Positions 37,305-37,434 of a DNA stretch of 64,000 nt are shown piece after piece. The notes below the pieces were generated by a model that made no database searches, was not told the DNA's origin, and saw nothing but the letters and a program-made list of their open reading frames with translations. Source of the DNA: Actinacidiphila guanduensis. Lineage in GTDB: Bacteria; Actinomycetota; Actinomycetes; Streptomycetales; Streptomycetaceae. Every line of letters starts with the position of its first letter. Position 1 is the first letter of the stretch. The DNA lies in the NCBI RefSeq assembly GCF_900103985.1, contig NZ_FNIE01000007.1:372001-436000 (forward strand), given 5' to 3'. A program made the translations under genes and the position numbers.

Positions 37305-37434
37305 TCGGCACGGGTCGGTACGGGGCGGCGCAGGCCAGCACGGGTCGGCGCAGATCGGCGCAGGTCAGCACGGGTCAGCGCAGGTCGGTACGGGGCGGCA
37401 CGGACCGGGCCCGGGTCGGCACGGGTGGCACGAG
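37305..37434. repeat. Ten-bp degenerate tandem repeat array upstream of amt
   Basis: About 13 consecutive ten-base units resembling TCGGCACGGG (variants TCGGTACGGG, TCAGCGCAGG, GCGGCGCAGG) fill 130 bases right before amt. The period equals roughly one helical turn. The minus frame of amt is open through the array and would read a [10 protein letters not shown]-like peptide repeat, but this lies upstream of the likely start. Confidence 0.7.

Follow-up and report, generated by a model that had tools for sequence, protein, structure and literature searches.

The amt gene of Actinacidiphila guanduensis is separated from a GlnR-type promoter by a ten-base tandem array, which raises the question of whether the repeat is a control element of the transporter gene or the product of ordinary repeat expansion in its leader. 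Analysis of the window, a stretch of 64,000 nucleotides from contig NZ_FNIE01000007.1, using the program TRF assigned the array a period of 10, with 70% matches and a score of 100, and a unit that reads CGTGCCGACC on the amt strand. Twelve units can be laid out over positions 37305–37425, the unit at 37405–37415 having 11 bases, and the mean pairwise identity among them is 0.72. In the best 110-base stretch of the amt–era intergenic region, 74 of 110 positions match at a lag of ten bases, compared with a mean of 41.4 (sd 3.9) and a maximum of 56 in 2000 dinucleotide-preserving shuffles; when 500 shuffles were scored across all periods from 5 to 30, none gave more than 58 matches. We conclude from the score and these counts that the array is real, consisting of head-to-tail copies beyond chance. 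Linkage between the variable positions of the unit is not significant, the observed value being reached in 240 of 2000 permutations.

The initial annotation had counted 13 units and described the array as the strongest in the window. Both statements hold in part: 12 units are laid out and the thirteenth is only partial (37426–37432), and the array is the longest in the window, but its TRF score is exceeded by that of a repeat at 10612–10707 (127) and equalled by that of another at 22732–22802. The repeat at 10612–10707 lies inside a called intergenic gap and has a period of 40 with a ten-base sub-period. Elsewhere in the window, at 3542–3664, tandem repeats of 11, 12 and 22 bases overlap in one stretch. 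A coding role for the amt array was considered and rejected: a long open frame crosses it, but the amt genes of relatives start at a conserved ribosome-binding site.

The features around the array are collected in Table 1. The half-sites form a ladder, GAAAC, GCAAC, GAAAC, GAAAC, a degenerate fifth position and GAAAC, and their positions, together with the TRF coordinates, confirm the earlier placing of the array, with GlnR-like boxes on one side and the amt start on the other. For activators of this type, some 10 bases separate the end of the boxes from the −10 element. The motif GAnnCT is presumed to be the −10 element of amt because it stands 10 bases after the last half-site, matching that spacing. 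The transcription start would adjoin the array, which would place the array in the amt leader. On the far side of the era-type gene, positions 38573–39658 encode a 361-residue regulator of the Lrp/AsnC type, which carries two helix-turn-helix stretches, both AsnC-type.

Table 1. Features of the amt–era region, numbered as in the window
Feature	Positions	Strand	Basis
Ten-base tandem array, 12.8 copies	37305–37432	−	TRF, shuffles and unit layout
amt, ammonium transporter, GTG start at 37288	35945–37288	−	PF00909, E 6.5e-121; start from ribosome-binding site conserved in relatives
amt ribosome-binding site GAAGGGA	37296–37302	−	Sequence; relatives keep GAAGG
GAGGCT, presumed −10 element	37433–37438	−	Alignment and spacing (GAnnCT in 25/25); role inferred
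GlnR-like half-site GAAAC nearest promoter	37449–37453	−	GlnR-like weight matrix/pattern
GlnR-like pair GAAAC-n6-GAAAC	37471–37486	−	Matrix score 21.4
GlnR-like pair GAAAC-n6-GCAAC	37489–37504	−	Matrix score 18.4
era-type GTPase, divergent neighbour	37585–38514	+	MMR_HSR1 and KH_2 domains
PII-like (glnK-like) gene downstream of amt	35610–35948	−	Open frame; name by eye

The history of the array was explored by comparison across the genus, with one genome per species. From 35 genomes considered, the era/amt promoter was aligned in the 25 that have era and amt together, namely the A. guanduensis genome and 24 relatives; one genome with a short doubtful interval (G009) and one that is 71% complete (G014) were left out. 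Eight further genomes (G001, G004, G012, G020, G021, G024, G028 and G029) have era but no adjoining amt in the fetched stretch, and these indicate that some members of the genus have lost the pairing or never had it. In the aligned set, GAnnCT stands 10 bases past the last half-site in 25 of 25 genomes, and the strict ladder pattern, with half-sites 11 bases apart, is present in 23, the remaining two (G018 and G025) having GAAAT as the last site.

The spacer between GAnnCT and the GAAGG of the ribosome-binding site, by contrast with these fixed elements, ranges from 17 to 130 bases among the 25 species. It has 17–19 bases in 16 of the 24 relatives, 30 in two and 41–42 in five; the longest are those of A. 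guanduensis, with 130 bases, and of G003, with 99. With the minimum score set to 30, TRF detects an array in this spacer in one genome out of 25, that of A. guanduensis, and in none of the 24 relatives. The initial annotation had named an array missing from relatives with intact amt regulation as the observation that would refute its reading, and at the level of sequence this is the situation encountered: all 24 relatives are without the array and have kept the half-sites and GAnnCT. Other repeats were seen in the region. In G003 (locus L023) the spacer has been enlarged separately, through a 35-base duplication with 26 matches in 30, and on the era side, upstream of the promoter, TRF finds tandem repeats of 35 bases in G005 (L003), of 12/24 bases in G032 (L017) and of 11/23 bases in G023 (L194).

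Since the compared relatives have the same promoter without the array, we consider it most likely, with a probability of about three in four, that the array is a lineage-specific minisatellite and that it arose, behind a GlnR-type promoter, by repeat expansion of an ordinary kind in the amt leader. The spacers of relatives, exemplified by that of G019, CGTGCTAGCCGCCGACC, contain both ends of the unit. Amplification of the spacer in one lineage is the simplest history. In this history, a short ancestral spacer (CGTGC...CCGACC, about 18 bases) linking promoter and ribosome-binding site would have grown to 130 bases by the repeated gain of ten-base copies, slippage or unequal recombination being the probable mechanism, and the copies would then have diverged. 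The leader would have been lengthened by about 112 bases, leaving the GlnR-like sites, GAnnCT, the ribosome-binding site and the amt frame intact, and the expansion may have been near-neutral. Two points count against this minisatellite reading. The units have diverged to 72% identity while the promoter remains unbroken, and a cause specific to the unit could also have been at work, as arrays of the same consensus elsewhere exceed three control patterns (see below).

A regular set of direct repeats near a regulated promoter nevertheless invites comparison with an operator, each unit binding a regulator or a nucleoid protein so that the whole serves as a multi-site control element for amt. By eye, the GAC core of the unit recalls the 3′ part of the GlnR half-sites. 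We regard such an element as very unlikely, given that the array is absent from every aligned relative, that GlnR-like pairs are 11 bases apart while the array has a period of 10, and that the array sits downstream of the presumed −10 element. A weight matrix built from the aligned half-sites, with which the true pairs score as in Table 1, identifies no GlnR-like pair inside the array, the best scores being −16.5 for a spacing of 11 bases and −8.5 for one of 10, and inspection of the array reveals no A-runs of the kind associated with bending. The phase had been described as presenting the same face repeatedly to a protein. The helical turn is approximately 10.5 bases, however, and because a step of 10 falls short of this, the offset accumulates to about half a turn over 12 units, which would not place the units all on one side. 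This and the two results above, the array-less relatives and the lack of a GlnR-like pair, speak against a phased array.

A role at the level of RNA was weighed in the same way. The array lies probably within the transcript, and of the 128 bases of its amt strand 59 are C and 40 are G, as would suit a long C-rich leader acting as a Rho-type loading site or as some other attenuator of amt. Among 968 upstream windows from the same genome, however, this C excess reaches only the 89th percentile, and the leader element is not conserved. The predicted fold of the leader, at −50.9 kcal/mol, is no better than that of its shuffles (mean −51.4 kcal/mol, z 0.14), and a search of the leader against Rfam returned a single match below threshold (10.8 bits, where 40 are needed). 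Regulation through the leader RNA is, in our estimation, very unlikely.

To place the array among the tandem repeats of its surroundings, we surveyed 1.26 Mb of the A. guanduensis genome and 1.2 Mb from ten relatives, 2.46 Mb in total, with crude gene calls. After merging of overlaps, 193 intergenic arrays with three or more copies remain in this sample, and the amt-leader array ranks 27th among them by score. Such arrays are few in shuffled intergenic DNA: five dinucleotide shuffles gave, for A. guanduensis, about two arrays per shuffle (periods 5–24), compared with 81 in the actual sequence, before merging. The search for similar arrays across the genome, proposed in the initial annotation, brought to light many unrelated short tandem arrays but no second copy of this one. 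Within the A. guanduensis genome there are only short partial matches, the next best having an E value of 5e-4 over 30 bases; no match was found in phages; and the 16 plasmid records that match are all from Streptomyces clavuligerus, with 51% of the array covered at 79% identity and none covering 80%. With no full further copy in the genome, in plasmids or in phages, a mobile or dispersed repeat was rejected.

Arrays with periods of 10–11 account for 25 of the 65 intergenic arrays in a first A. guanduensis sample (160.8 kb of intergenic DNA), which included both the window and the surroundings of pattern matches found earlier (C11, C20 and C22). In a second sample, taken from other contigs (72.7 kb), the share was only 4 of 20, so that an excess of such arrays in A. 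guanduensis is not established; in the ten relatives it is 12 of 92 (236 kb). The A. guanduensis arrays of these periods comprise nine in divergent, 14 in tandem and four in convergent intergenic regions and two at stretch ends, where the respective intergenic lengths are 70.9, 119.2, 34.6 and 8.9 kb. They track intergenic length and not promoters. A binding function of the amt array is improbable: it contains no GlnR-like pair, its RNA folds like its shuffles, and the 10–11-base arrays of the A. guanduensis genome are not gathered at promoters.

The unit itself recurs outside A. guanduensis. A pattern of three successive YYGACCYGYR units, with up to two mismatches allowed, is present in 67 of 297 genomes of the family Streptomycetaceae, to which A. 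guanduensis belongs, at 87 places by hand count, two of them in the A. guanduensis genome. The reversed pattern, as a control, matches in 13 of the 297 genomes (14 matches), and two patterns with permuted units match in 23 genomes (24 places) and 16 genomes (16 places), the latter being only nearly matched to the original at the unit joints. A third permutation, found in 48 of the 297, is unusable as a control because its ambiguous letters let it match the same arrays. When the permuted patterns are themselves reversed, they occur in 15 genomes (for the unit found in 23), 17 (for that found in 48) and one (for that found in 16). With the array itself as BLAST query at an E value of 1e-5, 36 of the 297 genomes are matched, A. 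guanduensis included, compared with eight for the reversed sequence. Against these controls the unit appears to be in excess, but the controls are few and the unit was picked after the array had been seen.

Thirty-seven of these loci were fetched, of which two (L329 and L367) are the same place, leaving 36 distinct loci. They contain 43 array pieces called intergenic, one place being counted twice and the gene calls being crude; the neighbouring genes both run with the array in 18 cases, only the downstream gene does so in 12 and only the upstream gene in seven, and both run against it in six. In eight of the 36 distinct loci (L329, L330, L345, L350, L351, L356, L368 and L369), an open frame of 160–503 codons ends in a TGA stop at which the array begins, the stop occupying the same position of the unit each time, although a TGA inside the unit favours gene ends by itself. 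As the unit has 10 bases, the TGA of these arrays falls in all three frames.

These observations would be accommodated if the amt array were a member of a recurring ten-base class with one cause in the Streptomycetaceae, be it a binder or an amplification bias specific to the unit. We consider this unlikely, for the reasons given above and because the units of the other ten-base arrays in the A. guanduensis genome differ widely. A fuller version seems to us more doubtful again: that the YYGACCYGYR arrays constitute an unnamed intergenic class that arises at gene ends and leaders from a single cause, through a binder or through amplification seeded by CTGACC-like sequences at stop codons, and that the amt leader has been stretched in this way in a single lineage and could have been retuned. 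If the recurrence of the unit across the family is genuine, it would offer a handle on the repeated amplification of certain units in high-GC genomes. Neither the array nor the class is described in the titles and opening abstracts retrieved, mostly from journals open without subscription, on ten-base or tandem repeats in Streptomyces, on minisatellites and on amtB repeats.

Overall, the array and its promoter can be set beside three known kinds of system. The ten-base YYGACCYGYR arrays elsewhere in the Streptomycetaceae share the period and unit consensus of the amt array, but their loci and genes are unrelated. The promoter resembles the GlnR-activated amtB promoter of Streptomyces coelicolor, for which passages of the original paper describe three boxes, a3-b3, a1-b1 and a2-b2, with an atypical a2 site (PMC5826061; see also the review PMC10704036); the six positions found here can be read in that box order, with the fifth degenerate. 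Here, in contrast, amt adjoins era and the array parts the promoter from the ribosome-binding site, and the passages on the S. coelicolor promoter mention no such repeat (PMC5826061). The locus is a clean example of fixed regulatory sites combined with a promoter-to-ribosome-binding-site spacer that differs in length among related species, and it cautions that a striking repeat beside a promoter is not necessarily an operator. In this it is close to the bacterial minisatellites, or VNTRs, of gene leaders: its copies lie head to tail, differ by point changes and are limited to one lineage, and the length of the amt spacer changes from species to species.
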